This document shows positions 42,193-58,968 of a DNA stretch of 58,968 bases, piece after piece. The notes under the pieces were generated by a model that saw nothing but the letters and a program-made list of their open reading frames with translations, ran no database searches and had not been told where the DNA came from. Numbering within the stretch: position 1 is the first letter of the stretch; each line of letters opens with the position of its first letter. The stretch comes from an uncultured Bacteroidales bacterium (GTDB taxonomy: Bacteria; Bacteroidota; Bacteroidia; Bacteroidales; F082): contig CAMZAM010000015.1 of NCBI GenBank assembly GCA_947304185.1, forward strand, positions 1-58,968. Reading direction: 5' to 3'. The translations under genes and the position numbers were made by a program.

Positions 42193-42210
42193 AACAGAAA
42201 TTTTAGCTTA

Positions 42211-42218: not shown

Positions 42219-42259
42219 CAAAATTTTTTTCAATTAGTGTAAAATCATGAGAAATTTAT

Positions 42260-42267
42260 TATCTTTG
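42260..42267 (+). promoter_or_regulatory. Candidate -7 element for the DUF349-aroC transcript
   Basis: TATCTTTG followed by CAG matches the consensus. It would give a leader of about 87 nt before the ATG at 42361. The leader contains a weak GTTTCGTGAAAACGAAA hairpin with no recognised riboswitch. Confidence 0.5.
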
Positions 42268-42360
42268 CAGCGAGATTTATACTCCTATATCGTGTTTCGT
42301 GAAAACGAAATTCTGATAACGACTAAATTAAATTATTGATTATCAAACATTTATCTAAAG

Positions 42361-45381: not shown

Positions 45382-45401
45382 CACAATATTAAAAAATTGT
45401 G

Positions 45402-45409
45402 TATTTTTG
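45402..45409 (+). promoter_or_regulatory. Candidate -7 element for the riboflavin operon
   Basis: TATTTTTG followed by CAG lies 11 bases before the first conserved base of the FMN riboswitch, as expected for the promoter of its leader RNA. Confidence 0.6.
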
Positions 45410-45419
45410 CAGCGTAAAA

Positions 45420-45533
45420 CTTCAGGGCAAGGTGAAATTCCTTTCCGGCGGTGACAGTCCGCGACTTCCCTTCGGGGAACTGATTCGGTGAAATTCCGAA
45501 ACCGACGGTGACAGTCCGGATGAGAGAAGTTTT
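45420..45533 (+). promoter_or_regulatory. FMN riboswitch (RFN element)
   Basis: The leader holds the conserved RFN blocks in order: AGGGCAAGGTGAAATTCC, CCGGCGGTGACAGTCCGCGA, a variable CTTCCCTTCGGGGAAC hairpin, GGTGAAATTCCGAAACCGA, CGGTGACAGTCCGGATG and GAGAAG. This is the FMN-binding aptamer that normally switches off riboflavin genes when FMN is plentiful. It is followed 28 bases later by a terminator hairpin that ends exactly at the ribD start. Confidence 0.97.
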
Positions 45534-45560
45534 GGTTTGTTAAAATTTTTCAAATATGAT

Positions 45561-45589
45561 GCCCTGATTTTTTATTTGGGGCTTTTTTT
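45561..45589 (+). terminator. Riboswitch-controlled terminator abutting the ribD start codon
   Basis: A GCCCTGA arm (45561-45567) pairs with TTTGGGGC (45575-45582, with G-U pairs), followed by seven U residues (45583-45589). The next base is the A of the ribD ATG. It is the likely expression platform of the FMN riboswitch; the hairpin could also hide the ribosome site. Confidence 0.8.
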
Positions 45590-46747
45590 ATGTCATATTG
45601 TGAAAAAGACATCGAGTTAATGCGGCGCGCCATCGAGCTCGCTAAGAAGGGCGGAGGATACGTCCATCCGAATCCTTTAGTGGGCTGCGTGGTGGTGAAC
45701 GACGGCGAGATTATCGCCGAAGGTTACCATGAGAAATATGGTGAATATCATGCCGAACGCAACGCTCTAACACGCTGTCAGTCAGAAACTAAAGGCGCTT
45801 CACTTTATGTAACACTTGAACCTTGCTGCCACTACGGCAAGACGCCTCCATGCACCGAGATAATAATCGAAAAAGGTATCAAAAAAGTATATGTCGGCAT
45901 CCTCGACCCGAACCCGCTGGTGGCCGGTAAAGGCGTGAAGCGGCTTCAAGACGCCGGAATAGATGTCGAAGTAGGCCTCTGCGCCGACGAGATCCGCGAG
46001 TTAAACAAGGTTTTTCTGAAATACATCACCACAAAACGGCCTTATGTCATCATGAAGACCGCCATGACCCTCGATGGGAAAATAGCAGCATTTACTGGCG
46101 ATTCGAAGTGGGTGACGAACGATGAGTCACGTAAGATGGTGCATCAACTGCGTAGCGAGATGGCTGGCGTCATCGTCGGAATAGGCACCGTCCTCGCCGA
46201 CGACCCGATGCTGACCTGCCGTTTGGAAGGAAATTATCACCAGCCAATACGCATTGTCGTTGATTCAAATTTAAGAATACCTGTTGATTCTCAATTGGTT
46301 AAGACAGCAAAGGAATACAGAACGATTGTTGCTACAACCGTCATTTCGACTGAAGCGGAGCGGAATGGAGAAATCTCATTTAATTGCAGGAGATTTCTCG
46401 ACTCCCTACGGTCGCTCGAAATGACGGGTTTGGATGTCATTCAATGTACAGAAAAAGACAATCATGTCGACATCAACGACCTCATGACCAAACTCGGGGC
46501 CATGGGAATCGATTCCTTGTTGTTAGAAGGCGGCGGAACTCTCAATGCCGCGTTTCTCGAGGCCGGCTGCGTCGATGAGGTATTGGCGTTCATCGCACCG
46601 AAAATAATTGGCGGAGCAGACGCCAAGACTCCTGTTTCCGGCAAGGGAATCGACAAAATGAGCGAGGCGATAAATCTGCAAGACATTGATATTCAAAATA
46701 TTAACGGCGATATTTTAATAAAAGGAAAGATATGTTCACAGGAATAA
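45590..46747 (+). CDS. ribD: Bifunctional diaminohydroxyphosphoribosylaminopyrimidine deaminase/reductase
   Basis: RibD carries out the second and third steps of riboflavin synthesis. The deaminase domain has VHPNPLVGCVVV, the zinc ligands YHAERNAL (about 51-58) and TLEPCCHYGKTPPCTE (about 76-91). The reductase domain begins near 150 (YVIMKTAMTLDGKIA, SKWVTNDESRKMVHQLR, GIGTVLADDP) and ends LLEGGGTLNAAFL, VLAFIAPKIIGG. At 385 residues it is longer than usual. The excess is a 29-residue segment (about 251-279, VISTEAERNGEISFN to SLEMTG) encoded by palindromic repeat copy D inserted in frame in the reductase. The last 16 bases overlap ribE. Confidence 0.95.
   Translation: MSYCEKDIELMRRAIELAKKGGGYVHPNPLVGCVVVNDGEIIAEGYHEKYGEYHAERNALTRCQSETKGASLYVTLEPCCHYGKTPPCTEIIIEKGIKKVYVGILDPNPLVAGKGVKRLQDAGIDVEVGLCADEIRELNKVFLKYITTKRPYVIMKTAMTLDGKIAAFTGDSKWVTNDESRKMVHQLRSEMAGVIVGIGTVLADDPMLTCRLEGNYHQPIRIVVDSNLRIPVDSQLVKTAKEYRTIVATTVISTEAERNGEISFNCRRFLDSLRSLEMTGLDVIQCTEKDNHVDINDLMTKLGAMGIDSLLLEGGGTLNAAFLEAGCVDEVLAFIAPKIIGGADAKTPVSGKGIDKMSEAINLQDIDIQNINGDILIKGKICSQE
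46339..46426. repeat. Palindromic GTCATTTCGA repeat, copy D, inside ribD
   Basis: An 88-bp imperfect inverted repeat with outer arms CGTCATTTCGAC and TCGAAATGACGG and inner arms GGAGAAATCTC and GGAGATTTCTC. It is translated in frame within the RibD reductase domain, starting with the same VIST residues found at the ends of TsaD and LigA. Confidence 0.9.
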
Positions 46748-47373
46748 TCGAAGAAATAGGTAAGGTGAAGGCTATCACCCGCAGCGCCAACAGCATCAGG
46801 CTGACCGTTGCGGTGCATAAGATCCTCGACGACATACATATCGGCGACAGCATCTGCACCAACGGCGTCTGCCTCACGGTGACGACATTCGACAACAGCT
46901 CATACACCGCCGACGTGATGCCTGAAACGATGAACCGTACCAACTTCAAAGACCTGAGAATCAATGATTTAGTGAACTGCGAGCGCGCCATGCCTGCCAA
47001 CGGTCGCTTCGGCGGTCATATAGTCTCGGGACATATCGACGGCACAGGCATCATCACCAAGATGACCCTCGACGACAAGGCGATACGCGTGAAGATAGAG
47101 ACACGGCCTGAGATCCTGCGTTACATCGTGGAGAAAGGCTCCATCACCATCGATGGTATCTCATTGACAGTCACCGATGTAAGCAGCTTCGACTTCGGTG
47201 TTTCCATCATCCAGCACACCCAGGATGAGACGACTCTCACGAAGAAAAAGATAGGCGACACCGTGAATCTCGAGAATGACATCGTCGGGAAATATATCGA
47301 GAAATTTGTTGGCAACATCACTGCCCAACATGATGAGAAACTACTTAACTTATTGAAAGACAATAATTTTTAA
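46732..47373 (+). CDS. ribE: Riboflavin synthase alpha chain
   Basis: Dismutates two 6,7-dimethyl-8-ribityllumazine molecules to riboflavin. The 213-residue protein has the conserved start [12 protein letters not shown] and two lumazine-binding repeats, one around [16 protein letters not shown] (about 43-58) and one around [16 protein letters not shown] (about 137-152). Length is typical. It overlaps ribD by 16 bases and ends 2 bases before ribBA, so translation is likely coupled through the operon. Confidence 0.96.
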
Positions 47374-47375
47374 TA

Positions 47376-48596
47376 ATGAATAAAGATTTTAACACTATTG
47401 AGGAAGCTTTAGGCGACCTTCGCGCCGGTAAGATGATCATCGTGGTCGATGACCCTGACCGTGAAAACGAGGGCGATTTGATTTGTGCGGCTGAGTTTGC
47501 TACCGTCGAGAACGTGAATTTTATGGCGTCATACGGCAAGGGCCTGATATGCATGCCGATGAGCTCGGAGATATGCAAACGCTTGAAACTCAATCAGATG
47601 GTGACTGAAAACACTGATAACCACTGTACAGCTTTTACCGTTTCCATCGACTATCGCGACACCACTACAGGCATCTCGGCTGTCGAACGTTCCATCACTG
47701 CCATGAAGGTGGTGGAAGACGGCGTCAGAGCCGAGGATTTCCGTCGTCCGGGACATATGTTTCCGCTCGAGGCTCGTCAGGGTGGAGTGCTGAAACGTGG
47801 CGGCCACACTGAGGCTACCGTCGATTTGATGCGTCTCGCCGGACTGAAGGAATGCGGTCTGTGCTGCGAGATCATGCGCGAAGACGGCACCATGATGCGC
47901 ACAACGGAACTGGTGCAGTTTGCTAAGGCTAACAACCTGAAAATCACTTCGATAGCCGAACTGATAAAATATCGTCGTAAGACCGAGGTCTTGGTGGAAC
48001 GTGTGACAGAGGCCGAACTGCCAACAAAATATGGCACTTTCAGAGCTATAGGTTATGTCGATAAGATCACCGGCGAGCATCATGTGGCACTGGTGAAAGG
48101 CGACCTTACCACCCCTGAACCTGTCTTATGCCGTGTGCACTCGGAATGCCTAACCGGCGATGCTTTCGGCTCTATGCGTTGCGACTGCGGCGAGCAGCTG
48201 CAGGAGGCCATGCGCCGTATCGAGGCGAAGGGCAGGGGCGTGTTGCTTTATCTCCGCCAGGAAGGCCGTGGCATCGGCTTGATAAATAAGCTCAAAGCCT
48301 ACACCTTGCAGGACAAAGGCATGGACACCGTCGAGGCTAACCTCGCACTCGGTTTCGCTGCCGATTTACGAGACTACGGCACCGGTGCTGAGATCCTCGC
48401 TGACCTCGGTGCAAGGAAAATCGTCGTGATGACCAATAACCCGATGAAAATCAGCGGATTGGAAGGCTACGGCATCGAGATCGTAGGCCGTGAGCCTATC
48501 GAGATGACCTGCAACGAAAAAGATGCATTCTATCTGTATACGAAATATAAAAAAATGGGGCACATGCTTCATGTTAAAGAAATCAACAACAATTAA
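47376..48596 (+). CDS. ribBA: Bifunctional DHBP synthase / GTP cyclohydrolase II
   Basis: Makes both precursors of the lumazine ring. Residues 1 to about 205 are Rib[17 protein letters not shown] (acidic loop), GLICMPMS and [24 protein letters not shown]. The rest is Rib[29 protein letters not shown], with the three zinc cysteines, and [24 protein letters not shown]. Both halves look complete at 406 residues. It lies between ribE and ribH and is under the upstream FMN riboswitch. Confidence 0.97.
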
Positions 48597-48608
48597 AACT
48601 ATACAAAA

Positions 48609-49070
48609 ATGAAAACATTAGAAGGAAAACTCTTGGCACAGGGCCAGAAGATTGCTATCGTAGCCGGCCGTTTCAACGAAATCATCACCAACAAGCTGTT
48701 AGGTGGCGCCATCGACGCTTTCAAACGTCACGGCGGTGAAGAGAAAAACATCGACGTCGCTTGGGTTCCGGGCGCTTTCGAGATCCCGCTCGTAGCAAAG
48801 AAGATGGCTGCAAGTAAGAAATACGACGCAGTGGTATGCCTCGGTGCCGTCATCCGTGGTGCAACACCTCATTTCGACATGGTCGCTAACGAGGCAACAA
48901 AAGGTATCGCTCAAGTCGGCCTGCAGACCGAAGTGCCAGTGATATTTGGCGTTCTCACCACCGACAGCATCGAACAGGCAGTTGAAAGAGCCGGTTCAAA
49001 AGCTGGAAACAAAGGATACGATGCAGTGACAACTGCCATCGAGATGGTTAACCTTCTCAAACAGATTTAA
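48609..49070 (+). CDS. ribH: 6,7-dimethyl-8-ribityllumazine synthase
   Basis: Joins the RibA-derived pyrimidine with the RibB-derived butanone phosphate. The 153 residues carry [34 protein letters not shown] and [23 protein letters not shown], including the catalytic histidine after the GATPHF turn. Family length is 150-160. It is the last gene of the riboflavin operon, 12 bases after ribBA, and is followed by a perfect G-U-allowed palindrome at the convergent junction. Confidence 0.96.
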
Positions 49071-49080
49071 CCATCGACAA

Positions 49081-49110
49081 TGTAGGGACGTGGCGCGCCG
49101 CGTCCTTACA
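49081..49110. repeat. 30-bp palindrome at the ribH/CYTH convergent junction
   Basis: The arms TGTAGGGACGTGG and CCGCGTCCTTACA pair completely if two G-U pairs are allowed, around a CGCG centre. There is no U-tract, so it is a weak terminator at best. It contains the TAA stop of the CYTH gene. It resembles short dispersed palindromes common in bacterial intergenic regions. Confidence 0.8.
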
Positions 49111-49582
49111 TCCAGGTTTTATAAGGATTCTTTGAAATATAAGAATTGTAATACCGTTTGTCGCCCGTGACCTCTTTCCCCAACCATGCCGGTCGGTCGA
49201 ACGGCTCGTTCTCGTCCGACAGCTCAATCTCAGCCATCACCAGGCCTTCGTTATCTCCATGAAACACATCGACTTCCCAGACATGCTTTCCGTCGGTGTT
49301 CTTAATAAGATAACGTGTCTTGTCAATGATTCCTGGCTCTGCCATCGCCAAAAGGGCTTGGGCTTCCTGTAAAGAAATCTCTTTTTCCCATTCGAAACGC
49401 GACACTCCCGAGGCATCGGCTTCGCCTTTGATGGTGAGATATCCTTTGTCACCCTTAACTCTCACTCGCACAACACGTTGCGGCATGCTGCTGAGGTATC
49501 CTTGGGTGATTCGGATGGCATCGTAGGCTTCTTGCTTGAAGTCACCGCCGACTAAAAACTTCCGTTCAATCTCTTGAGCCAT
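49106..49582 (-). CDS. CYTH domain protein (triphosphate tunnel metalloenzyme)
   Basis: A 158-residue CYTH-fold protein. The signature MAQEIERKFLVGG opens the domain (ExExK-like metal and phosphate site, here EIERK), followed by ITQGYLSS, VRVRVKGDKGYLTIKGE, FEWEKEI and KTRYLI, with the acidic MAEIELSDENE. Family members act on triphosphates or inorganic tripolyphosphate. It starts 3 bases after the pncB stop, so it is the second gene of that transcript. Its stop lies in a palindrome. Confidence 0.9.
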   Translation of the reverse strand: MAQEIERKFLVGGDFKQEAYDAIRITQGYLSSMPQRVVRVRVKGDKGYLTIKGEADASGVSRFEWEKEISLQEAQALLAMAEPGIIDKTRYLIKNTDGKHVWEVDVFHGDNEGLVMAEIELSDENEPFDRPAWLGKEVTGDKRYYNSYISKNPYKTWM

Positions 49583-49585
49583 AAC

Positions 49586-51061
49586 TCATTCATTTTCAAA
49601 CTCTTCTATCTCCTTGACGATATTCTCTATCAGCCTTTCCTTCAGGTCGTAGAGGTCGTCGGAGATGTCGCATTTGTAGTAATGCGGGTTGATGAGACGT
49701 TTCTCAGTCTCGTCGAGATGCTCAAGATTATCAAGGTAATACGCACGTTTCTCCTGAATCGGGACGTCTTCGAGAATCACTTTGCCGTCTTTCATCACCT
49801 GCGGCTGCAGGATACGGTATTCGTATTTTCCGGCAGGGAAGGTGGTCGACTTCAGATGGTCGGTCTCATCACGTAAGGTGATATCTTCATGATTCTCAAT
49901 GGCTTGCGATAGCTTGTCGCCTCTCAGACAAGTCACATCCATCTTGAATTTGTTGTTTCTTATGATACGATAAGTGATCTGGAAACCAGGATTTATCAGC
50001 TTGCTGCTTTCTTCCGAGCGTTTCAACACCGGCATGTCGTCGACCTGCACGAGCTTGTAGACGTTGCCGAAGCAAGGGTTATGCTTGCTTGTCGCGATGG
50101 CGTCGCCCACGCCGTAGCTGTCGACCATGCAGCCTTGACGCTCCAGCTCGGTGATGAGGTATTCGTCTAACGCATTGGTAGCGAATATCTTACAGTTCTT
50201 CAAACCTGCAGCATCCAGCATCTCACGGGCGTGGATCGAGAGATATGTCAAGTCGCCGCTGTCGAGGCGGATGCCGTAGCCGTAAGGGTAGGAGTCGTCG
50301 ATGCCGTTGGCTTTGAACGCCTTGATGGCGTTTTTCAGGCCGCAGCGCAGGGTGTCGTATGTGTCAACGAGAAGTATCAGTATCTCGTTCTTATGTGTCT
50401 TGATATATTTGTCGAACGCTTCGTATTCGCCTTTCACCGTCGCGCCGAACGAGGTGACGTAGCTGTGTGCCATCGTTCCTGACGACGGGAATCCGAACTC
50501 CACACCGGTGACGATGTTGGATGTGTTCTGACATCCACCTATCACTGCAGCTTTTCCGCCGTAGATGGCAGCCCACGGGCCATGGGCGCGACGGCTTCCG
50601 AACTCGCTGATGGGCTTGGTGGTGCTGCGTGTCACACGCGACGCCTTGGTGGCCACCGCCATCTGATGGTTCATGATGCAAAGCATAGGGGTCTCGAGCA
50701 CCTGCGCCTCGATGATTGGGCCTTCGATGGTGATGATAGGCTCTTTCGGGAACGCTATCTCGCCTTCGCGCATGGCGTAGATGTTGCCGGTGAATCTCAT
50801 CTTGGCGAAATATTTACGCACCTCGGCGTATTCCTCACCTGGCAGAAACTGCTCGAAGAAATGCTCGTCGGCTTTTCCGAGGCCTTCCACCATCTTCAAA
50901 ACCTCACGTACGCCGCTGACGACCGCCCAGTTGTTGGTGTCTGGAGCCTTGCGGTAAAAAAGATTAAAAATAGCTCGTTTGTCCTTCATCCCATTGTCAT
51001 AGAATGACTTACCCATTGTGTATTGGTACTTGTCGGAGCAATAAGAAGTGTTCAGTTCCAT
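49586..51061 (-). CDS. pncB: Nicotinate phosphoribosyltransferase
   Basis: Salvages nicotinate to nicotinate mononucleotide for NAD synthesis. The 491 residues start at 51061 (MELNTSYCSDKYQYTMGKSFYDNGM), which matches the family opening DxYQxTM. Other signatures are AVVSGVREVL, EGEIAFPKEPIITIEGPIIEAQVLE, EFGSRRAHGPWAAIYGGKAAVIGG (substrate arginine and histidine region), LVDTYDTLRCGLKNA and YGIRLDSGDLTYLS. It is transcribed with the CYTH gene from a near-consensus -7 element at 51081. Confidence 0.95.
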   Translation of the reverse strand: MELNTSYCSDKYQYTMGKSFYDNGMKDKRAIFNLFYRKAPDTNNWAVVSGVREVLKMVEGLGKADEHFFEQFLPGEEYAEVRKYFAKMRFTGNIYAMREGEIAFPKEPIITIEGPIIEAQVLETPMLCIMNHQMAVATKASRVTRSTTKPISEFGSRRAHGPWAAIYGGKAAVIGGCQNTSNIVTGVEFGFPSSGTMAHSYVTSFGATVKGEYEAFDKYIKTHKNEILILLVDTYDTLRCGLKNAIKAFKANGIDDSYPYGYGIRLDSGDLTYLSIHAREMLDAAGLKNCKIFATNALDEYLITELERQGCMVDSYGVGDAIATSKHNPCFGNVYKLVQVDDMPVLKRSEESSKLINPGFQITYRIIRNNKFKMDVTCLRGDKLSQAIENHEDITLRDETDHLKSTTFPAGKYEYRILQPQVMKDGKVILEDVPIQEKRAYYLDNLEHLDETEKRLINPHYYKCDISDDLYDLKERLIENIVKEIEEFENE

Positions 51062-51080
51062 GATAATCGTCAAATTTTTG

Positions 51081-51088
51081 CAAAGTTA
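51081..51088 (-). promoter_or_regulatory. Candidate -7 element for pncB-CYTH
   Basis: Minus strand TAACTTTG followed by C, matching TAnnTTTG, 19 bases before the pncB ATG at 51061. The leader is very short. Confidence 0.5.
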
Positions 51089-51179
51089 TAACTTTTTCTC
51101 GCAGATTTTACAGCTTATCACAGATTTTTCTGTTCTATCGCGATATTTCAGTTCGTCGATGCTAATTAGCCATCCGTTT

Positions 51180-51449
51180 TTAAGCTGCTGCCAGCACTGC
51201 TAAAAACAGCCATGCCAGCAATGCTATCGTGACGATTGCCAGTAAGCTTCCGAGGCATCCCCAGTTACGTTCGCCATCAGGCAGCTTATCCGATAACAGA
51301 CAGATTATCAAGCCGATAAGAGGTGTGAACAGCACCGAAAGGAAGAATGTCCAGCCGAAGCCGATGCGGCGACGGGCACCGATAAAGCCTACTAGCACCG
51401 CCAGCAGTGATCCTGAGATCAATCCGAAAATCAATAATGTTAAAGTCAT
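51180..51449 (-). CDS. Small membrane protein, unknown function
   Basis: An 89-residue protein with three hydrophobic helices: TLTLLIFGLISGSLLAVLVG (about 2-21), FGWTFFLSVLFTPLIGLIIC (about 31-50) and GSLLAIVTIALLAWLFLAVL (about 67-86). The motif IGARRRIGFGWTFFLS between helices one and two resembles that in many small Bacteroidetes membrane proteins of unknown role. It has its own promoter 18 bases upstream and is not obviously part of an operon. Confidence 0.75.
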   Translation of the reverse strand: MTLTLLIFGLISGSLLAVLVGFIGARRRIGFGWTFFLSVLFTPLIGLIICLLSDKLPDGERNWGCLGSLLAIVTIALLAWLFLAVLAAA

Positions 51450-51466
51450 AATGTCATAATTTGTGG

Positions 51467-51474
51467 CAAAGATA
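51467..51474 (-). promoter_or_regulatory. Candidate -7 element for the small membrane protein gene
   Basis: Minus strand TATCTTTG followed by CC, 18 bases before the ATG at 51449. A plus-strand promoter for the structured RNA begins 24 bases further right. Confidence 0.5.
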
Positions 51475-51497
51475 GAAATTATTTTTCAAAAAAAGTC

Positions 51498-51527
51498 TTG
51501 ACAATTCAAAAATATGTTGTATCTTTG
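51498..51527 (+). promoter_or_regulatory. Strong promoter of the structured RNA
   Basis: TTGACA at 51498-51503, a 16-base spacer, and TATCTTTG at 51520-51527 followed by CAG. Few promoters in this window have so clear a -33 element. It predicts a start near 51533-51535, exactly where the RNA closing stem begins. Confidence 0.75.
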
Positions 51528-51533
51528 CAGTCT

Positions 51534-51660
51534 GGGAAACTTCTATGGTTCCGAGCACTAACCCTCGACATGCCGCTGCAATGGTCCTGGGTGTTTAAGG
51601 AAGCGGACGGCGGCAATCCGCAAAAGAGTGTGCTACTTTTTCCATAGAAGTTTCCTTTTT
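51534..51660 (+). ncRNA. Structured RNA of about 125 nt, 6S-like candidate
   Basis: Bases 51535-51548 (GGAAACTTCTATGG) pair perfectly with 51642-51655, followed by five U, giving a 14-bp closing stem that doubles as terminator. Inside, AGCAC (51554-51558) can pair with GTGCT (51630-51634), and an upper hairpin forms from TGCCGC (51571-51576) with GCGGCA (51610-51615) and GTCC with GGAC. GCGG (51610-51613) can instead pair with CCGC (51618-51621), a competing fold. One long hairpin with internal bubbles and a strong promoter suits 6S RNA. It lacks the GGTCAGG and AGCAG motifs of SRP RNA. No protein frame is present. The RNA call is firm; the 6S name is tentative. Confidence 0.7.
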
Positions 51661-51998
51661 ATTATGTCTTCAGTTTTACGCGGTTCCGCTGTTTTTACTT
51701 CCCAGTGATCGCCTGAAAGGCATAAATCAATTCCGGCAGTGTTATTCAGTTCACCATTGAATATTACCAAAAGAATTGAATCACTTGATCCTTTTCGTAT
51801 TTGATTGTATCCTTTAACTACAGCTTTTACAAAGTCTGTGGCTGATAATCCGACTTTTTCCAATTCTTTTTTATGGCGTCGTTCAATGTGTTTCAAATAG
51901 TTTTCGGTTAGATAAATATCAGCACACTTTCTGTTGATTTTTCGTGCTATAGTCATTTTCAGACGTCCGACTTTTATCGGTTTATTCATACTTTTCAT
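51633..51998 (-). CDS. Small putative nuclease/toxin-like protein
   Basis: A 121-residue basic protein. I chose the ATG at 51998 because the promoter -7 element (52026-52033) lies inside a longer frame starting at 52046. The core reads ADIYLTENYLKHIERRHKKELEKVGLS, then FVKAVVKGYNQIRKGS, SILLVIFNG and HWEVKTAEPRK. The HIxxRH motif followed by beta strands recalls the barnase/EndoU/RelE-like nuclease group found in phages and toxins, but I cannot confirm it. The last codons and stop lie antisense to the 3' stem of the structured RNA (28-base overlap). It has the same promoter type as the RhuM genes. Confidence 0.6.
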   Translation of the reverse strand: MKSMNKPIKVGRLKMTIARKINRKCADIYLTENYLKHIERRHKKELEKVGLSATDFVKAVVKGYNQIRKGSSDSILLVIFNGELNNTAGIDLCLSGDHWEVKTAEPRKTEDIIKRKLLWKK

Positions 51999-52021
51999 AA
52001 AAAATGATTTTAAAGTTATAC

Positions 52022-52115
52022 GCTGCAAAATTACATCATAAATCATTATGTGTCAAGGATTTAATTCTTAAATTTTGTTTAGATTTCTTGCAAAATAATG
52101 CAAGTTTTGTTAATT
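52022..52115. repeat. Left member of an imperfect direct repeat flanking the RhuM array
   Basis: This AT-rich segment (CTGCAAAATTACA, TATGTGTCAAGGATTTAATT, AAATTTTGTTTA, AATGCAAGTTTTGTTAA) is closely matched at 55802-55915. Both are promoter regions of leftward genes at either side of the RhuM cluster. They may be boundaries of a duplicated or inserted block. Confidence 0.7.
52026..52056 (-). promoter_or_regulatory. Promoter of the small toxin-like gene (TTGACA-N17-TAATTTTG)
   Basis: On the minus strand TTGACA (52051-52056) and TAATTTTG (52026-52033) are separated by 17 bases. The spacing and hexamer match the promoters of the RhuM genes at 53127, 54180, 55231 and 55805. Confidence 0.75.
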
Positions 52116-52191
52116 TTTTTTACACTGAAAATCTCTATCGGGGATTATTATGTTCCTTTTTGCTTGATCAAAAATGAACCGAAAAAATCAA

Positions 52192-52227
52192 GGCCCGAAT
52201 AAAACGGATCTCCCCGCTATTCGGGCC
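52192..52227 (-). terminator. Inverted repeat, probable terminator of the RhuM array
   Basis: GGCCCGAATA (52192-52201) and TATTCGGGCC (52218-52227) are perfect arms around a 16-base loop. On the minus strand the hairpin is followed by TTGATTTTTTC, so it can end transcripts from the RhuM genes 14 bases upstream. The nearby TGCTTGATCAAAAATGAACC text resembles a dispersed Bacteroidetes intergenic repeat. Confidence 0.65.
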
Positions 52228-52240
52228 GTGGCCGCCGCAC

Positions 52241-53099
52241 TTAATTCAAAATTTTTTGCAAAAAATCTTCTTTTTGAACACTCAGTTTTATGAAAGTTGA
52301 CACTTTCTTTCCAAGATCTTTTATTGAACCTCCGATAAGATAGACCTCGTTGTCAATTATTAAGAATCTGTCATGCGATTTGTTAAAACGTTCAATGTTT
52401 ATTGGCTGATACTGAGAGTTGTGCTTGTCCAAATCGAGTTTTAGATTCTCTGAGATATGAGATGTATAAATCGTAGCTGAGACATTGTGTTCTCGTTTAT
52501 TCAGAATCTTTAAAACTGAATCATCAACATAATTATCAATAAGAATTATTTCTTGCTTAGCCATTCTGATTAAATCCGATATAAAACTATATGCATCAAA
52601 TATTTGTCCATCATAGAAGACGCCTTCACGAGGCGGAAGTTGGCCTTTGACTATTGTGTCGAGTTCTTCTGTTTTCTTTTTCAGATAGAACACCTCTTCT
52701 TCAACTTTGTCAACTCTGATGTTAATAGAATTTGTCTTGATGATGTGATTCTTTATAATCACGGTGCCCCATTTCCGAAATTCAATACCTTTTCGCGATT
52801 TCACGCGATATCCCACAGAAATAATTGCATCCAGAATAGTAATCGACATAACGTTTAACGGCTCTGCCTCCTTCGTTTTGAACTGTTGCAAAATTTGCAA
52901 CGGTTGAATTTCTATCCAATTCGCCTTCATCAAATATGTTTCGCAAATGCCTTGATATTGTTGATTTATCGCGTTGATATAATGCCGATAAATTGTCTAA
53001 AGTTAACCATAATGTATCGTTTTCCAATACGACTTCCATATTGATTGAGCTATCCGGCTGATAAAGCACAATTTCGCTGTTGTTTTTTACTGGTATCAT
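52241..53099 (-). pseudogene. RhuM-PLD-like gene, copy 1, broken by a frameshift
   Basis: Copy 1 of the tandem family. The first 85 codons (MIPVKNNSEIVLYQPDSS to GRAVKRYVDYY) match copies 2 and 3; then a net loss of 2 bases at about 52831-52847 shifts the frame. The remainder continues in another frame as DAIISVGYRVKSRKGIEFRKW through the coiled-coil linker to a PLD-like C-terminus with HDRFLIIDNEVYLIGGS, the fullest HxRx4Dx6GGS motif of the three. The middle is nearly identical to copy 3, but the last 90 residues diverge from both others. It could yield two fragments or be restored by frameshifting; pseudogene is the simpler reading. Confidence 0.82.
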
Positions 53100-53340
53100 A
53101 TTTTTTAATTTTCAGAAACTTCGCTGCAAAAATATACTAAAAATCCTTGTCAGTCAAGCGGAAAAGTGTTAAAAAATTTTAACATAAGTTTCATTTTTCT
53201 GCATGAAATCTAAAAATTTCTTTACAAAACAGGCCGATTTTAGTGTGTTCTACCTTCTATTAAACTACTAAACTATTAAGCTATTAAGCTAATAAGCTGA
53301 AAATCACAAAATTTTCAAAATCTTCTCTTTATTGAAATTA
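53100..53340. repeat. Long direct repeat between RhuM copies 1 and 2
   Basis: About 240 bp that recur almost unchanged at 54153-54390. It spans the 3' end of the next RhuM copy, a string of short TAAGCTATTAAGCT-type units (53257-53298), an AT-rich spacer and the promoter. The period of the gene-plus-spacer unit is about 1,050 bp, the mark of a tandem duplication. Confidence 0.88.
53127..53157 (-). promoter_or_regulatory. Promoter of RhuM copy 1
   Basis: Minus strand TTGACT (53152-53157), 17 bases, TATTTTTG (53127-53134), 28 bases before the ATG at 53099. Confidence 0.7.
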
Positions 53341-54152
53341 AGTTTTGAGAAAGCGAACATTCTTTTTCCTAAATCTTTTAAAGAAGCCCCGATATGATAT
53401 ACTTCGTCGTCGATAATCAGAAATCTGTCGTGGGTATTCTTGAAAACCTTAATATCTATTGGCTGATACTGCGTATTATGTTTTTGCAAATCGAGTTTCA
53501 GATCTTTTGAAAGATTTGCTGTGTAAATGGTAGCTTTTACGCCATCATTTCGTTTGTTTAGCATTATTAAAACTGATTCGTCGATGTAGTTGTCGATAAG
53601 GATGATTTCGTGCTTTGCTCTTCTGATTAAATCTGATGCAAACACGTAAGCGTCAAATATCTGGCCATCATAGAAGACACCTTCATGAGGCGGAAGCTGG
53701 CCTTTGACTATGGTGTCGAGTTCTTCAGTTTTCTTTTTCAGATAAAACAATTCTTCCTCGACTTTATCAACTCTGACATTTAGTGCGTTAGCTTTAATAA
53801 TATGGTTTTTTATAATGACATTAGCCCATTTGCGAAACTCGACTCCTTTCTGCGATTTAACGCGATATCCGACAGAAATAATAACATCCAAATTATAATA
53901 ATCTACTTGATAGGTTTTTCCGTCGGAAGCAGTTGTTGCAAAATTTGCAACAACTGCATAAGGCGTTAATTCCCCTTCTTTGAATATATTTTTTATATGC
54001 CTTGATATTGTTGACTTATCGCGTTGATAAAGCGTTGACAAATTATCTAATGTAAGCCACAAAGTCTCATTTTCTAATACGACTTCCATATTGATCGAGC
54101 TATCTGGCTGATAAAGCACAATTTCGCTATTATTTTTATTTACTGGTATCAT
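53304..54152 (-). CDS. RhuM-family protein fused to a PLD-like domain, copy 2
   Basis: A 282-residue protein. Residues 1 to about 120 are the RhuM-type N-terminal domain (EIVLYQPDSSINMEVVLENETLWLTLDNLSTLYQRDKSTISRHIKNIFKEGEL, VDYYNLDVIISVGYRVKS, EFRKWANVIIKNHII), with a winged-helix-like stretch at QRDKSTISRH. A coiled-coil linker follows (about 122-150). Residues 155-282 look like half of a phospholipase D fold: EIILIDNYID and HDRFLIIDDEVYHIGAS (about 241-257), an HxRx4Dx6GxS version of the HKD motif with Arg for Lys. RhuM proteins often sit in type I restriction loci, as here. Nuclease activity is an inference. Compared with copies 1 and 3 the N-terminal variable region differs (TPYAVVANFATTASDG). 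Confidence 0.82.
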   Translation of the reverse strand: MIPVNKNNSEIVLYQPDSSINMEVVLENETLWLTLDNLSTLYQRDKSTISRHIKNIFKEGELTPYAVVANFATTASDGKTYQVDYYNLDVIISVGYRVKSQKGVEFRKWANVIIKNHIIKANALNVRVDKVEEELFYLKKKTEELDTIVKGQLPPHEGVFYDGQIFDAYVFASDLIRRAKHEIILIDNYIDESVLIMLNKRNDGVKATIYTANLSKDLKLDLQKHNTQYQPIDIKVFKNTHDRFLIIDDEVYHIGASLKDLGKRMFAFSKLNFNKEKILKIL

Positions 54153-54390
54153 ATTTTTTAATTTTTAGAAACTTCGCTGCAAAAATATACTAAAAATCCT
54201 TGTCAGTCAAGCGGAAAAGTGTTAAAAAATTTTAACATAAGTTTCATTTTTCTGCATGAAATCTAAAAATTTCTTTACAAAACAGGCCGATTTTAGTGTG
54301 TTCTACCTTCTATTAAACTACTAAACTATTAAGCTATTAAGCTAAAAATCACAAAATTTTCAAAATCTTCTCTTTATTGAAATTCATTTT
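54153..54390. repeat. Long direct repeat between RhuM copies 2 and 3
   Basis: Nearly identical to 53100-53340, with the short TAAGCT-type string at 54310-54343 one unit shorter. A looser version of the string is at 55294-55346, beside copy 4, so unit number varies among the three. Confidence 0.88.
54180..54210 (-). promoter_or_regulatory. Promoter of RhuM copy 2
   Basis: Minus strand TTGACT (54205-54210), 17 bases, TATTTTTG (54180-54187). It is identical in layout to the copy 1 promoter and lies in the repeated spacer. Confidence 0.7.
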
Positions 54391-55203
54391 TGTGAACGCG
54401 AACATCTTCTTTCCCAGGTCTTTCAATGATGCTCCGATATGATATACTTCGTCGTCGATAATCAGAAATCTGTCGTGCAATTTGTTAAAATATTCAATGT
54501 TTATTGGTTGATACTGGGAGTTGTGCTTTTTTAGATCCAGTTTAAGATTTTCAGAAATATGAGCAGTATAAATCGTAGCTGAAACATTGTCAGCTCTTTT
54601 GTTTAGAGTTTTTAGAACTGAATCATCGATATAATTATCAATAAGAATGATTTCTTTCTTTGCTTTTCTGACCAAATCGGAGATGAAGGTGTAAGCGTCA
54701 AAAATCTGACCGTTGTAGAAAACGCCTTCACGAGGCGGAAGTTGGCCTTTGACTATTGTGTCGAGTTCTTCTGTTTTCTTTTTCAGATAGAACACCTCTT
54801 CTTCAACTTTGTCAACTCTGATGTTAATAGAATTTGTCTTGATGATGTGATTCTTTATAATCACGGTGCCCCATTTACGAAATTCAATTCCTTTTCGCGA
54901 TTTTACGCGATACCCGACTGAAATAATCGCATCCAGATTATAATAATCGACATAACGTTTGACAGTTCTGCCTCCTTCGTTTTGAACTGTTGCAAAATTT
55001 GCAACGGTTGAACTTTTATCCAATTCGCCTTCATCAAATATGTTTCGCAAATGCCTTGATATTGTTGACTTATCGCGTTGATATAATTCCGATAAATTAT
55101 CTAATGTTAACCATAATGTATCGTTTTCCAATACGACTTCCATATTGATTGAGCTATCCGGCTGATAAAGCACAATTTCGCTATTATTTCCCACTGGTAA
55201 CAT
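54349..55203 (-). CDS. RhuM-family protein fused to a PLD-like domain, copy 3
   Basis: An intact 284-residue copy with the same layout as copy 2: RhuM N-domain (MLPVGNNSEIVLYQPDSS, YQRDKSTISRHLRNIFDEGEL, VDYYNLDAIISVGYRVKS), coiled-coil linker, and PLD-like C-domain with HDRFLIIDDEVYHIGAS. From the N-domain to the linker it is nearly identical to copy 1, but its C-terminal end follows copy 2 (MFAFTKMNFNKEKILKIL). This mosaic suggests gene conversion or unequal crossing over. Own promoter upstream. Confidence 0.82.
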   Translation of the reverse strand: MLPVGNNSEIVLYQPDSSINMEVVLENDTLWLTLDNLSELYQRDKSTISRHLRNIFDEGELDKSSTVANFATVQNEGGRTVKRYVDYYNLDAIISVGYRVKSRKGIEFRKWGTVIIKNHIIKTNSINIRVDKVEEEVFYLKKKTEELDTIVKGQLPPREGVFYNGQIFDAYTFISDLVRKAKKEIILIDNYIDDSVLKTLNKRADNVSATIYTAHISENLKLDLKKHNSQYQPINIEYFNKLHDRFLIIDDEVYHIGASLKDLGKKMFAFTKMNFNKEKILKIL

Positions 55204-55230
55204 AAATTTTAATCCTTAGAAACCTCACCG

Positions 55231-55261
55231 CAAAGATATAGTGAAAAATATTATCTGTCAA
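55231..55261 (-). promoter_or_regulatory. Promoter of RhuM copy 3
   Basis: Minus strand TTGACA (55256-55261), 17 bases, TATCTTTG (55231-55238), 28 bases before the ATG at 55203. The sequence around it differs from the copy 1 and 2 promoters, but the layout is kept. Confidence 0.72.
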
Positions 55262-55347
55262 GAAATTAATTGTAAAATTATTTTTACAAAATCCATTAAA
55301 CTTCTAAGCTTCTAAGCTAATAAACCTCTAAGCTAATAATCTATTAA

Positions 55348-55755
55348 TCAGACGATTCTTGTTCCTTTCCCTTGATGGAAAATGAAACGGATTTTGCGCA
55401 AGTCGAATGCAGAGCCAAGTTTGCTTTTTACGCGATAGCCGACGGAAATTATAACATCAAGATCATAAAATTTTGCTTTTCTCTTTATACTCCTATTCCC
55501 CTCTTTTTGAACCAGTAAGAAATCCTTACTAGTTGAATTTTCGTCAAGTTCTTCTTCTGTGTATATGTTGCCAATGTGCATCGTGACGTTCTGTGGTGTG
55601 GTATTAAATAACAAAGCCATTTGTGGTCTTGTCAGCCACACTGTTTCTTCATGTAGTTGCACTTCTAATTGAATTGTTCCGTCTTCGCTTCTATAAATAA
55701 TAACCGACTTTTCCGATTGCTGGCCGTCTGCTGATAAAATTACTTGATTGCCCAT
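55348..55755 (-). pseudogene. Truncated classical RhuM-family gene (copy 4)
   Basis: A 135-residue reading frame with the classical RhuM opening (SVIIYRSEDGTIQLEVQLHEETVWLTRPQMALLFNTTPQNVTMHIGNIYTEEELDENSTSKDFLLVQKEGNRSIKRKAKFYDLDVIISVGYRVKSKLGS). It follows the family to about residue 115; then, where FRxWA should come, it reads AFDLRKIRFIFHQGKGTRIV and stops. Classical members continue for another 150-200 residues, so the gene is cut short and its C-terminal half is gone. It is only distantly related to copies 1-3. It may still make a DNA-binding fragment. Confidence 0.75.
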
Positions 55756-55801
55756 TTTTATTAATTTTAAAAGATTTCAAAAATAATGTTGAATTCTATG
55801 G

Positions 55802-55915
55802 CTGCAAAATTACAATATAAAGCGTTATGTGTCAAGGATTTAATTGTAAAATTTTGTTTACAAAATATTCATAAAAATGCAAGTTTTGTTAAAAATTTTT
55901 TACATTGTAAAAATA
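55802..55915. repeat. Right member of the imperfect direct repeat flanking the RhuM array
   Basis: Matches 52022-52115 with scattered changes and a few small gaps. See that entry; the pair brackets the four RhuM genes. Confidence 0.7.
55805..55835 (-). promoter_or_regulatory. Promoter of RhuM copy 4
   Basis: Minus strand TTGACA (55830-55835), 17 bases, TAATTTTG (55805-55812), about 50 bases before the ATG at 55755. Both elements and part of the spacer equal those of the toxin-like gene at 52026-52056. Confidence 0.75.
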
Positions 55916-55943
55916 ATAATTAAAAGTTGTGTGATTTTTTGTT

Positions 55944-55951
55944 TATTTTTG
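55944..55951 (+). promoter_or_regulatory. Candidate -7 element for the DUF2971-hsdMS operon
   Basis: TATTTTTG followed by TAGGG, 33 bases before the GTG start at 55977. No good -33 match is seen, so the call is weak. Confidence 0.4.
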
Positions 55952-55976
55952 TAGGGTAAAACAAAATAAAATAATT

Positions 55977-56780
55977 GTGGCAGAGCAGAAATGCTTGTAT
56001 AAGTATTTAGATGTAAAAGGGGCGTTACTGATGCTATATCGTAGCAATCTTCAATTCACTAACGCTACGCGGTTGAACGATCCGTTTGACTGCCATCCTG
56101 CTTTGATTAATTTTTCCGACGTGCCTAAGGAAAAGTGTGATGGTTTTCCTCCAGAAATTATCAAAATGGTTGAATCAAACCAATATGAAAGATATAGGGA
56201 TAGTGCTTGGATTTGCAGTTTGTCAAAAAACAATGATTCACTGTTGATGTGGAGCTATTACAACAACCATAAAGGAGTTTGTATTGGTTTGGATATGGAA
56301 AAAGTAAAACTGCAGCTTTCTCGTATAATGAATGGTGTTTATATTGGCGCAAGGCAATTTGAAGTGAAATACAAAGATATTATCGAAAAACCTGATTATT
56401 TTCGTGATTATCAATATTTTTTTGAATACCAGATATCTACAAAAGCAAAAGCGTGGGAACATGAGCAAGAGGTGCGTTTAGTGTTGATGGATCCTGTGCC
56501 GGCTACAGTTCTTCATCATCCATGTTTTGCAGTTATGCAATTGCCATACAAGCCGAAAGATGATGATAAACCAATTGATTATAAAGAGTTGAGGGCGTAT
56601 ACTGAAATAGGCGGTGAATGTTTTGAATCACTCTATCTTGGAGTAAGCATTGATGAAGATGATAGGAAAAAAGTAATAGATTTAGCTAAAAAGCGTAATC
56701 CGGAAATTAAAATTTATCAAATGAATACAGATCCGAATGCATTTAAACTGCAAGCGGAAGAATATAAAGGAATTAGTTAA
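55977..56780 (+). CDS. DUF2971 family protein, GTG start
   Basis: A 267-residue protein starting at GTG (AEQKCLYKYLDVKGALLMLYRSNLQFTNATRLNDPFDC); the conserved domain begins at once, so no later ATG fits. The pattern LQFTNATRLNDPFDCHP, the aromatic WICSLSKNNDSLLMWSYYNNHKGVCIGLD and AWEHEQEVRLVL are diagnostic of DUF2971. Biochemical function is unknown, though the family is common next to defence genes. It precedes hsdM by 17 bases and is probably co-transcribed. Composition is AT-rich compared with the core region. Confidence 0.88.
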   Translation: MAEQKCLYKYLDVKGALLMLYRSNLQFTNATRLNDPFDCHPALINFSDVPKEKCDGFPPEIIKMVESNQYERYRDSAWICSLSKNNDSLLMWSYYNNHKGVCIGLDMEKVKLQLSRIMNGVYIGARQFEVKYKDIIEKPDYFRDYQYFFEYQISTKAKAWEHEQEVRLVLMDPVPATVLHHPCFAVMQLPYKPKDDDKPIDYKELRAYTEIGGECFESLYLGVSIDEDDRKKVIDLAKKRNPEIKIYQMNTDPNAFKLQAEEYKGIS

Positions 56781-56797
56781 GTGCGTTAAACAAAGTT

Positions 56798-58480
56798 ATG
56801 ACTGATTTAGAACTCAAACAACTCAAAGATAATCTCTGGCATTCGGCTGATATGCTTCGTGCCAGTGCTCATTTGGCAGCAAATAAATATGGACAACCTA
56901 TTCTGGGTCTCATCTTCTTGCGTTATGCCGATATTCTTTTTAAACAGAACAAGAAAAAGATTGACGAGAAATACAACGAGTATAAGGGTACTCGTATAGA
57001 GAAGTCTTACAAGGATATAGCTATTGAACAGTGTGGTTTCTTCCTTCCTGAATGTGCTTATTACGATACACTCAACGATGCTCCTGATGATGCTAATAAA
57101 GCTACTCTTGTGAAAAAAGCGATGGAGGCTATCGAAAAGGGAAATGCCAAGATGAATGGTGTTCTTCCTAAAGAGGTTTATGGACAGCTGGTTCCAGAAG
57201 AAGAACCTGAACTGCTGAGCAAGATTATCCGTGTTTTCAAAGATATTCCTGAAAATATAAGTATCGACCTGTTTGGCCAGATATACGAATATTTCTTAGG
57301 CGAATTTGCTTTGAGCGAAGGACAAGGTGGGGGAGCCTTCTATACCCCAGCCTCGGTTGTTCAATATATGGTTGAAGTTTTGCAGCCAGTACCAGGTGAT
57401 AAGAAGTTTCTTGACCCAGCATGTGGATCTGGCGGTATGTTTGTTCAAGCAGCTCGCTATATGCATTGCCACAACGCATCCAACAGCGATTTGATGAACT
57501 TCCGCTGCTATGGCGTGGAGAAAGACCCCGACACCGTGAAGCTCGCCAAGATGAACCTGCTGCTGAACAATGTGCGCGGCGACATCATCGAGGCCAACTC
57601 GTTCTATAGCGACCCGCACAATGCCTTCGGGCGTTTCGACTATGTGATGGCCAATCCGCCGTTCAACGTGGACGAGGTGGTGGTGGAAAAGGTGATTAAC
57701 GATAAGCGTTTCAGCACCTACGGCGTGCCCCGCAACAAGACCAAGAGCGGCAAGAAGGCCTCCGACAAGAAAGAGACGGTGCCCAATGCCAACTACTTGT
57801 GGATTGGCTTGTTTGCCACCTCGCTGAACGAGCACGGCAAGGCGGCGCTCGTGATGGCCAACTCGGCCAGCGATGCCGGCGGCTCGGAGCTTGAGATTAG
57901 GAAAAAGATGATTGAGGACGGCATTATCAGCCAGATGGTGACGCTCCCCAGCAATATGTTCTCCACCGTGACGCTGCCTGCCACATTGTGGTTTTTCAAC
58001 AAAGACCGTAAAAACAAAGATGAGATCCTCTTTATTGATGCCCGCAATGTCTTTACGCAGGTTGACCGTGCCCACCGCAAGTTCTCGGAAGAGCAGATTA
58101 AGAACCTTGGCATTATCAGCCGTTTGTACGAGGGTGATTCTGACAGCTTCTGGGCATTGGTGGAGGAATACAAAGCCGCAGGAAAACAAGCCGAAGCGGA
58201 CTGGCTCTTGGAGCGCTGGCCCGAAGGCAAATACCAAGACGTGATTGGGCTGTGCAAAGTGGCCAAACTTGATGGCGAAGACGGTATCATAGACCAGGAC
58301 TACTCGCTCAATGCCGGCCGCTATGTGGGCGTGGTGATTGAGGATGACGGAATGACCGAGCAGGAGTTTGCCGACACGATGAAGGGCTTGAATGCCGAGT
58401 TCGCGCAACTGAATGAAGAAGCGTTGAAGTTGCAGGAGGAGATTGAGAAAAATATGAAAGAACTGTTTGGGGAGGAGTGA
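56798..58480 (+). CDS. hsdM: Type I restriction-modification DNA methyltransferase subunit
   Basis: Adenine-N6 methyltransferase of a type I system, 560 residues. The HsdM N-terminal helical domain (LKQLKDNLWHSADMLRASAHLAANKYGQPILGLIFLRYAD) covers about 1-140. The Rossmann domain has motif I LDPACGSGGMFVQAA (about 207-221) and the catalytic NPPFN (about 286-290). The C-terminus is coiled coil for contact with HsdS. Base composition changes near 57465-57500: the first third is AT-rich like its neighbours, while the rest is GC-rich with many C/G-ending codons, which suggests a recombinant gene. The stop is 2 bases before hsdS. No hsdR is in the window. Confidence 0.95.
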   Translation: MTDLELKQLKDNLWHSADMLRASAHLAANKYGQPILGLIFLRYADILFKQNKKKIDEKYNEYKGTRIEKSYKDIAIEQCGFFLPECAYYDTLNDAPDDANKATLVKKAMEAIEKGNAKMNGVLPKEVYGQLVPEEEPELLSKIIRVFKDIPENISIDLFGQIYEYFLGEFALSEGQGGGAFYTPASVVQYMVEVLQPVPGDKKFLDPACGSGGMFVQAARYMHCHNASNSDLMNFRCYGVEKDPDTVKLAKMNLLLNNVRGDIIEANSFYSDPHNAFGRFDYVMANPPFNVDEVVVEKVINDKRFSTYGVPRNKTKSGKKASDKKETVPNANYLWIGLFATSLNEHGKAALVMANSASDAGGSELEIRKKMIEDGIISQMVTLPSNMFSTVTLPATLWFFNKDRKNKDEILFIDARNVFTQVDRAHRKFSEEQIKNLGIISRLYEGDSDSFWALVEEYKAAGKQAEADWLLERWPEGKYQDVIGLCKVAKLDGEDGIIDQDYSLNAGRYVGVVIEDDGMTEQEFADTMKGLNAEFAQLNEEALKLQEEIEKNMKELFGEE

Positions 58481-58482
58481 GT

Positions 58483-58968
58483 ATGGAAACAACCATTTAT
58501 AGGATTTCAGAGATAGGTGAGGTAATAGGAGGAGGAACCCCATCAACAGAAAACCCAGATTATTGGGATGGTGCGATTCCGTGGATTTCCCCTAAAGACC
58601 TTACAGGATATAATTCCACATATATCTCTCGTGGAGAAAAGAATATTACAGAAAAAGGATTAAACAAATCTGGGACAAGATTGCTTCCTCAAAACACTGT
58701 TCTATTTACATCAAGGGCACCTATTGGCTATGTGGCATTGGCCGCAAATCCGATTTGTACTAATCAGGGATTTAAGAGTGTTGTTTGCGATGAATCTAAG
58801 ATTGTACCGTTGTTCTTATATTATTATCTCAAAGCTAATCTGGATTATATCAAACTCTTCGGTACTGGAGCCACATTCCCTGAAATATCGGGGAGTTCAA
58901 TGAAAAAAATCAAGATTAACATTTTTTCTAACACTAACTACCAGCGCCGCATAGCCTCCATCCTTTCC
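58483..58968 (+). CDS. hsdS: Type I restriction-modification specificity subunit, partial
   Basis: The frame is open from ATG 58483 to the window edge, 162 codons. It starts METTIYRISEIGEVIGGGTPSTENPDYW and has the first target-recognition domain signatures PWISPKDLT, LLPQNTVLFTSRAPIGYVAL, NQGFKSVV, FLYYYLKANLD and GATFPEISGSSMKKIKI, followed by the start of the conserved central helix region (YQRRIASILS). This gives one half-site of the DNA target; the second domain lies outside the window. AT-rich again, in contrast with the 3' part of hsdM. Confidence 0.93.
   Translation, partial: METTIYRISEIGEVIGGGTPSTENPDYWDGAIPWISPKDLTGYNSTYISRGEKNITEKGLNKSGTRLLPQNTVLFTSRAPIGYVALAANPICTNQGFKSVVCDESKIVPLFLYYYLKANLDYIKLFGTGATFPEISGSSMKKIKINIFSNTNYQRRIASILS

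Follow-up and report, generated by a model that had tools for sequence, protein, structure and literature searches.

BfiI, a restriction enzyme of the phospholipase D (PLD) family, has a reader-plus-PLD layout that resembles the one reported here. Target-recognition domains are exchanged in HsdS, the non-catalytic subunit of type I restriction-modification (R-M) systems, whose variable recognition segments lie between conserved parts. We analysed the whole of a contig (C15; 58,968 nucleotides, GenBank CAMZAM010000015.1, assembly GCA_947304185.1) of an uncultured Bacteroidales bacterium, hereafter called the window, which ends inside an hsdS gene. Within positions 52241-55755 it carries three tandem genes, all on the minus strand, for proteins that join an N-terminal RhuM-type reader, a long helix and a half PLD domain (RhuM-PLD), plus one reader-only fragment. 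As in HsdS, variable segments of the putative recognition part are flanked by conserved parts; unlike HsdS, the RhuM-PLD protein has its reader and a predicted nuclease in one chain. To judge from the sequences compared, reader and nuclease evolve almost independently, which is a new observation, and the pattern looks like exchange of a reader cassette via recombination in like flanking sequence.

The likeness to the PLD-family DNases and restriction enzymes (Nuc, NucT, BfiI, NgoAVII and SauUSI) lies in the fold and in the single motif per chain. The RhuM-PLD proteins differ in having HxR rather than HxK, G[AG]SxKD rather than GSxN and another DNA-binding domain, and their gene order requires no partner methylase. 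TrmB and TrmBL2 also combine a winged helix-turn-helix (wHTH), a helix and a PLD-like fold in one chain; their wHTH is a different one, and the H/R/D/K residues are conserved in RhuM-PLD. The closest tested parallel is Odn, the origin-directed nuclease of phage ICP1, in which a reader like the parasite's own replication protein steers the nuclease to the parasite's origin (PMC8263062). If our reading is right, Odn and RhuM-PLD would have in common a parasite-like reader on a nuclease, sequence-specific immunity and domain shuffling, whereas Odn, in the part of its description available, is phage-borne and has a GIY-YIG-type nuclease, a RepA_N reader and no cassette repertoire (PMC8263062). BstA is likewise a single-gene phage defence with a KilA-N-like domain; it differs in being prophage-borne with a self-immunity DNA element, and no PLD is reported in the available part of that paper (PMC8585504). 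RhuM itself was proposed in 2013 as a toxin domain acting via protein modification, and its position beside PrrC and R-M genes was noted in the same article, of which part was available (PMC3710099). RhuM and Fic on one chain are already known from the portion available of PMC6529018.

Cassette variation and the histories of reader and PLD

We compared seven tandem pairs from five arrays: one each from the window, G017, G009 and L023, and three from a single array of G027 (G numbers denote genomes, L numbers loci). Residues 6-32 were 93-100% identical within pairs, the 56-residue cassette (residues 33-88) 32-68%, the linker (113-156) 41-100% and the PLD 78-99%. Identity was lowest in the cassette in six pairs and in the linker in the seventh, G017; the variable stretch is centred on the cassette and in some pairs reaches into the long helix. 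The strand before the cassette is 96% identical in amino acids between window copies 2 and 3. At the nucleotide level, two adjacent genes of G009 reached 91-98% identity in their first 45 codon columns and 93-100% in their final 142, with 40-67% in the stretch between. Nonsynonymous divergence (dN) was higher over residues 1-100 than in the PLD in all four tandem pairs tested.

The same PLD stands behind other readers. The source genome has three further loci in which it follows an ORF6N reader (ORF6N-PLD), and four proteins from two other genomes of the genus carry an extra N-terminal RhuM-like part, then ORF6N, then the PLD. In these triple fusions PF10543 was matched in all four, while PF13310 scored above the cut-off in L176 and L177 and below it in L178 and L179. 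Five pairs of triple fusions combined cassettes of 23-40% identity with PLDs of 81-88%; in the sixth, between two species, the cassette was 98% identical (50/51), the first strand 65% and the PLD 87%. Among 4,095 pairs drawn from 94 RhuM-PLD proteins, 11 had a cassette at most 40% and a PLD at least 80% identical. The reverse case, a cassette at least 80% and a PLD at most 65%, occurred in 8; pairs with like readers and unlike PLDs are as predicted by module exchange. Over these pairs the correlation between cassette and PLD identity was 0.02, and the largest gap between the two was 0.67, against 0.27 between the domains of RibBA (325 pairs).

Window copy 2 and the ORF6N protein P0137 have PLDs that are 92% identical (119 columns), and for copy 3 and the ORF6N protein P0144 the figure is 89%; P0137 and P0144 are 91% alike in their readers (166/183) and 84% in their PLDs (102/121). 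Nearly the same PLD thus stands behind RhuM and ORF6N readers, and with the cassette differences this means that a tandem array combines different readers with a single type of nuclease. The reader label requires 9 changes, 2 of them forced by starred branches, on a PLD tree of 109 rows (57 ORF6N, 52 RhuM) in which few branches were well supported. Distances and tree signal were compared for 91 of the 94 proteins: reader data kept 0.31 of their signal on the PLD tree and PLD data 0.27 on the reader tree, with a reader-PLD distance correlation of r 0.07. The control was RibBA, a two-domain enzyme encoded in the window, which kept 0.75 and 0.85 (r 0.70, 26 proteins) and is more conserved, at 67-71% identity against 52-61%. 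Small samples were noisy, PLD halves in 26-row samples keeping 0.36-0.72 and reader against PLD in the same rows 0.00-0.30. With 58 of the 94 rows, PLD halves kept 0.73-0.80, odd and even columns 0.81-0.93, and reader against PLD 0.30-0.35. Sliding windows over these 58 rows placed the shift between the two histories in the long helices, at about residues 115-145. The IQ-TREE approximately unbiased (AU) test on the same rows rejected each domain's tree for the other domain, with a warning of few replicates. Alignment A3 comprised 68 of the 70 locus fragments (L048 and L051 left out) and the three window rows.

The window locus had been described beforehand as a tandem array of three RhuM-PLD copies about 1,050 bp apart. 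The three copies stand, with start-to-start spacings of the reader-side repeat of 1,050 and 1,054 nt, two copies being intact and one frameshifted; simple duplication does not, since the copies are mosaic. In alignment A2, copy 1 combines an upstream region like that of copy 2 with a reader like that of copy 3. Reader cassettes and PLD domains appear, from sequence comparisons, to have been exchanged across the family.

Predicted domains, motif and proposed mechanism

The preliminary description placed a reader-like domain, a coiled coil and a half PLD domain on one chain, and this organisation was borne out by the PF13310 match, a predicted PLD fold and the motif HxRx4Dx6GAS. PF13310 (Virulence_RhuM) matched only residues 65-129 of copy 3 (E 3.4e-19; 69.6 bits against a gathering cut-off of 33.7), above the cut-off and partial: profile positions 1-65 of 252 were covered in copy 3 and 1-107 in copy 2, and the full-length profile in neither. 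The rest of the profile is replaced here by the helix and PLD, whereas viral RhuM readers carry other tails. We found 99 viral stretches encoding the reader; 80 were kept, and none of the 72 of these with a readable tail had this PLD. In the model of copy 3 the cassette consists of helix-turn-helix (HTH) helices (34-57) and a hairpin (67-88). For the N-terminal domain the prediction is a fold like that of phage BRO-N readers, its model matching the predicted structure of a BRO family protein with a TM score of 0.61 (E 3.3e-05). Pfam Bro-N gave no match to the window proteins up to E 1. The absence of BRO-N from the reader's list of PDB matches was not taken as a sign of a different fold.

Structure prediction, which had been proposed as a check for the PLD fold, returned it for residues 160-284 of copy 3; no Pfam PLD model matched the window proteins up to E 1, and a PDB sequence search gave chance matches only. 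The motif of copy 3 is H243xR245x4D250x6G257AS259xK261D262 (HxRx4Dx6GAS at residues 243-259), one per chain. HxRx4D was present in 118 of the 120 RhuM-type and 117 of the 120 ORF6N-type matches listed, the remaining five being shortened or deleted there; Arg thus takes the place of the canonical Lys in 235/235 listed matches that keep the motif. In place of GSxN, 234 of the 240 listed have G[AG]SxKD and one GSSSKD, the same number as before (five) being shortened. The set of 94 rows had been gathered using the HxR pattern and was not counted as evidence for the motif; alignment A1 consists of 41 matches hand-picked from 120 listed, plus the window. Arg had at first been taken as a possible mark of altered or lost catalysis. 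Its fixation across the family (235/240 listed) makes it a family signature, which argues against decay and does not prove catalysis.

On the observed anatomy and module pattern a mechanism can be proposed, in which DNA reading, cutting and defence are inferred from sequences and predicted models. The BRO-N-like domain would read a DNA site, the cassette setting the sequence specificity, and the PLD domains would pair into a dimer via the long helix. The active site, formed from two chains, would be functional, with R245 and K261 standing where HKD sites normally have Lys and Asn. Binding to a target, for example a phage operator or origin, would place the dimer to cut nucleic acid, and changing phages would favour cassette exchange, as with the target-recognition domains of HsdS. 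We tentatively read the proteins as two-part, a BRO-N-like reader and a dimeric PLD cutter, probably acting as a single-gene defence against phages and other mobile DNA, and give this reading somewhat less than an even chance. The tandem copies would then likely form a set of cutters, each directed against other phage or plasmid DNA.

A wider proposal, possible and more doubtful, is that Bacteroidales have a modular repertoire of sequence-specific nucleases, in which the HRD-type PLD nuclease stays constant and the BRO-N-like and ORF6N readers joined to it, derived from captured phage regulators, are exchangeable, an HTH-hairpin cassette of at least 56 residues being traded through recombination between near-identical flanks, in arrays and across species. 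If so, new DNA targets could be gained without a new protein fold, in an innate, one-gene counterpart of HsdS shuffling. If the cassette sets the target, tandem pairs near-identical on either side of it offer a ready test of specificity evolution. RhuM would also be recast: the N-terminal part common to these proteins resembles a reader, and the role of effector would fall to whatever is joined to it, be it PLD, Fic or its own tail.

Several observations weigh against these proposals, in addition to two neighbour counts given in the next section. The canonical HKD Lys and the GSxN Asn are both missing. The link between reader and BRO-N is by predicted fold, hhalign profile comparison giving P 0.00096 and a probability of 22%; hhalign found no relation between RhuM-N and ORF6N, so reader homology is not claimed, and Foldseek found no match of the reader to solved structures under E 0.26. 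In G017 the linker helix (41%) is more variable still than the cassette (45%), so that the cassette is not the sole variable part; the window pair shows the cassette pattern least (cassette 68%, PLD 78%); and copies 1 and 3 are alike in the reader and more divergent in the PLD. The best Foldseek matches of the protein were to TrmBL2, and TrmB and TrmBL2, with their wHTH-helix-PLD layout, are regulators not known to have enzyme activity. The proteins may be TrmB-like transcription regulators, in which the reader binds promoters, the PLD-fold part senses a ligand or dimerises and an exchanged cassette directs regulation to a new target. The alignment with TrmBL2 spanned 269 columns with a root-mean-square deviation of 17 A over the whole, the layout agreeing domain by domain only, and no Pfam TrmB model was among the matches up to E 1. 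The residues H, R, D, G, S, K and D are fixed with both reader types, beyond what a mere sensor fold would need, no target neighbour is conserved and, to our knowledge, cassette exchange is unusual in local regulators; we regard such a regulator as unlikely.

Cassette variability would also fit recognition of changing phage proteins. The protein would then be a single-gene abortive-infection sensor whose cassette recognises a phage protein and whose PLD then cleaves nucleic acid, be it of host or phage, or acts on lipid. The occurrence of RhuM domains on Fic proteins (PMC6529018) and the abortive infection by which BstA, with its KilA-N-like domain, works (PMC8585504) agree with this, as far as the available parts of those papers go; the predicted reader fold resembles a DNA-binding family, and we hold a protein sensor to be distinctly unlikely.

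Genomic setting and spread

The family is large. The PADLOC model PDLC04879 (PDC-S05) aligned with residues 6-282 of the 284 of copy 3 (profile 3-282 of 285, E 2.6e-118), and all 7,998 scored candidates were homologues at E up to 0.001, so at least 7,998 exist; together these results mean that the window observation is not due to chance. Full-length PADLOC models match both types, PDLC04879 the RhuM-PLD and PDLC04869 the ORF6N-PLD proteins (E below 1e-110). PDC-S05 is, by contrast with the proteins described here, a model set that has no mechanism assigned to it and covers proteins that have a PLD together with others that lack one. In the parts of the papers available, it stands as a candidate without validation (PMC12988326, PMC13356809), and a rumen study reports 3,275 PDC-S05 loci (PMC13356809). 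We found no open-access paper describing RhuM-PLD or ORF6N-PLD fusions in its title or the start of its abstract. The genes are widespread and so far unexplained.

Within the genus a reader or PLD match was found in 35 of the 36 genomes searched. Among 115 matching plasmid records, 51 carried a relative over at least 80% of its length; many of these records represent the same plasmid, about 98 kb in size. Viruses rarely did (4 IMG/VR loci; 3 of 51 matching phage records over 80%), and record titles of relatives span several phyla. Such plasmid carriage and breadth, with patchy presence as at rpsL, where ORF6N-PLD lies beside the gene in 1 of 28 loci with 1,500 nt upstream, would suit a single-gene element of the selfish or homing type, or a solo toxin, maintained through its own spread. 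The rpsL insertion is intergenic with no interrupted target seen, no partner antitoxin is conserved, and the genes co-occur with R-M genes at one site, beside pncB, in several species; we find this explanation improbable. Homing by precise insertion was rejected as a candidate, the rpsL case giving patchy presence only and a second site test reading 7 loci. On the plasmid of about 98 kb, present in many human gut Bacteroides and Parabacteroides records, the RhuM-PLD gene (L112:12004-12840) has a recombinase and a small hypothetical gene as neighbours. In the roughly 300-nt stretch that precedes rpsL (L200, G000:C3), a leader is well conserved in six close genomes and may be a regulatory RNA.

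By gene content, the pncB side is an R-M hotspot in part of the genus. A clear pncB match was present in 12 genomes, of which G001, G006, G009 and G025 have other surroundings for it and no RhuM in the stretch fetched. The other eight comprise G000, G005, G011 and G017 with RhuM-PLD (that of G011 with an internal stop), G015, G026 and G035 with a RhuM piece, and G032 with neither; the contigs of G015 and G035 end early. R-M content at this site varies, from type I plus PrrC-like genes (G011, G017) to HsdM (G026). With the PDC-S05 listing, the hotspot makes a defence role likely, at candidate level.

The preliminary description had suggested a possible uncharacterised defence or conflict system in a restriction locus and expected enrichment near defence genes. 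The candidate defence status stands on the two grounds just named; a general tie to restriction loci does not. Among 72 gene clusters of the genus (80 PLD genes among the matches listed, the partial row of G026 and rows without PLD left out), 6 had HsdM at a distance of up to 10 kb, against 1.0 expected from random placement ignoring contig ends; the window cluster belongs to these six, three of which are one inherited site. The enrichment is weak. Elsewhere the neighbourhood counts against a defence reading: among 80 loci in other genomes no neighbour family occurred at more than 5, HsdM-like genes occurring at 5, and of 131 nearest neighbours scanned (79 loci) 2 matched N6_Mtase and 2 Methylase_S. 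These 131 remained from 146 near neighbours, 133 of them up to 900 aa, after two RhuM-like ones were dropped; of 105 far neighbours 101 were scanned. The nearest genes of relatives include housekeeping ones, such as a tRNA synthetase. Restriction-locus membership as a general rule was therefore rejected, constant hsd linkage not being found. A comparison of PADLOC families near and far (222 against 23) was not used, the near families coming mostly from two type I R-M loci that match many models.

Some arrangements would nevertheless suit an accessory to the neighbouring type I R-M system, or its regulator: RhuM-PLD adjoins hsdM in the window and lies near HsdRSM in G011 and G017, and ORF6N-PLD sits inside hsd operons, between hsdM and hsdS, in G019 and G029. 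The window genes are on the opposite strand to hsd, the R-M system differs at the same site (either type I or, in G005, a cytosine methylase accompanied by a helicase) and few relatives elsewhere adjoin R-M genes, which leaves such a role very improbable.

Three further observations concern the hotspot. An aroC-ribD-ribE-ribBA-ribH-pncB block (window 44362-51073; also L180, L181, L189-L192) forms a stable anchor beside changing defence genes. PrrC-like anticodon nuclease genes lie inside its type I R-M loci in two related genomes (L180:4812-6137 and L181:16449-17579; PDLC02360, E below 1e-90). In G005 (L190:9773-16012) it holds a cytosine methylase, a 506-aa protein without PADLOC match and a large helicase protein, and no type I system.

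Anatomy of the window locus

DUF2971, hsdM and the start of hsdS follow one another on the plus strand alongside the array, as had been described. No frame of hsdR size was found among the open reading frames (ORFs) of 40000-58968, none of which exceeds 666 aa. Copy 1 carries a small frameshifting deletion and, to judge from its frames, is either a pseudogene or an assembly error.

Table 1. Positions of the RhuM-PLD genes, their parts and neighbours in the window.
Feature	Position	Strand	Basis and remarks
Copy 1, broken RhuM-PLD	52241..53099	-	overlapping frames 52782-53099 and 52241-52933
Copy 2, intact RhuM-PLD, 282 aa	53304..54152	-	open frame; PDLC04879 E 1.3e-118
Copy 2 reader cassette, residues 34-86	53895..54053	-	
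Copy 2 PLD domain	53307..53690	-	
Copy 3, intact RhuM-PLD, 284 aa	54349..55203	-	open frame; PF13310 N-part; PDLC04879
Copy 3 reader cassette, residues 33-88	54940..55107	-	low identity between copies and relatives; secondary structure
Copy 3 long helices, predicted coiled coil, residues 103-154	54742..54897	-	model helices 103-124 and 127-154
Copy 3 PLD domain, residues 157-284	54352..54735	-	PLD fold; invariant residues in alignment A1
Reader-only RhuM fragment, 135 aa, no PLD	55348..55755	-	PF13310 E 5e-11, residues 74-117
Upstream region common to copies	53126..53188	-	also 54179-54241, 55230-55292, 55804-55866, 52025-52087
DUF2971 protein, neighbour	55977..56780	+	PADLOC candidate PDC-S31
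hsdM, type I R-M methylase	56798..58480	+	PF02384 E 1.5e-74; PF12161
hsdS start	58477..58968	+	PF01420 Methylase_S E 3.1e-27; contig end cuts gene
pncB, nicotinate phosphoribosyltransferase	49586..51073	-	NAPRTase_N and _C; synteny; hotspot anchor in genus

Members of the upstream repeat family are 67-78% identical to the copy at 55230, and the repeat may act as a promoter. The conserved box TAnnTTTG was rejected as a special promoter: 21 of 65 RhuM-PLD genes had it, and so did 129 of 292 controls. A 137-aa ORF at 51633-52046 has a sub-threshold match to the nuclease-like PBECR3 (E 0.0017); the 122 nt around its start (52000-52121) match, at 78% identity, a stretch upstream of the RhuM fragment (55779-55900). 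Copy 2, copy 3 and the RhuM fragment are each followed by short repeats with an 8-nt step (53253-53321, 54306-54374 and 55289-55365, respectively), which may aid recombination between copies.

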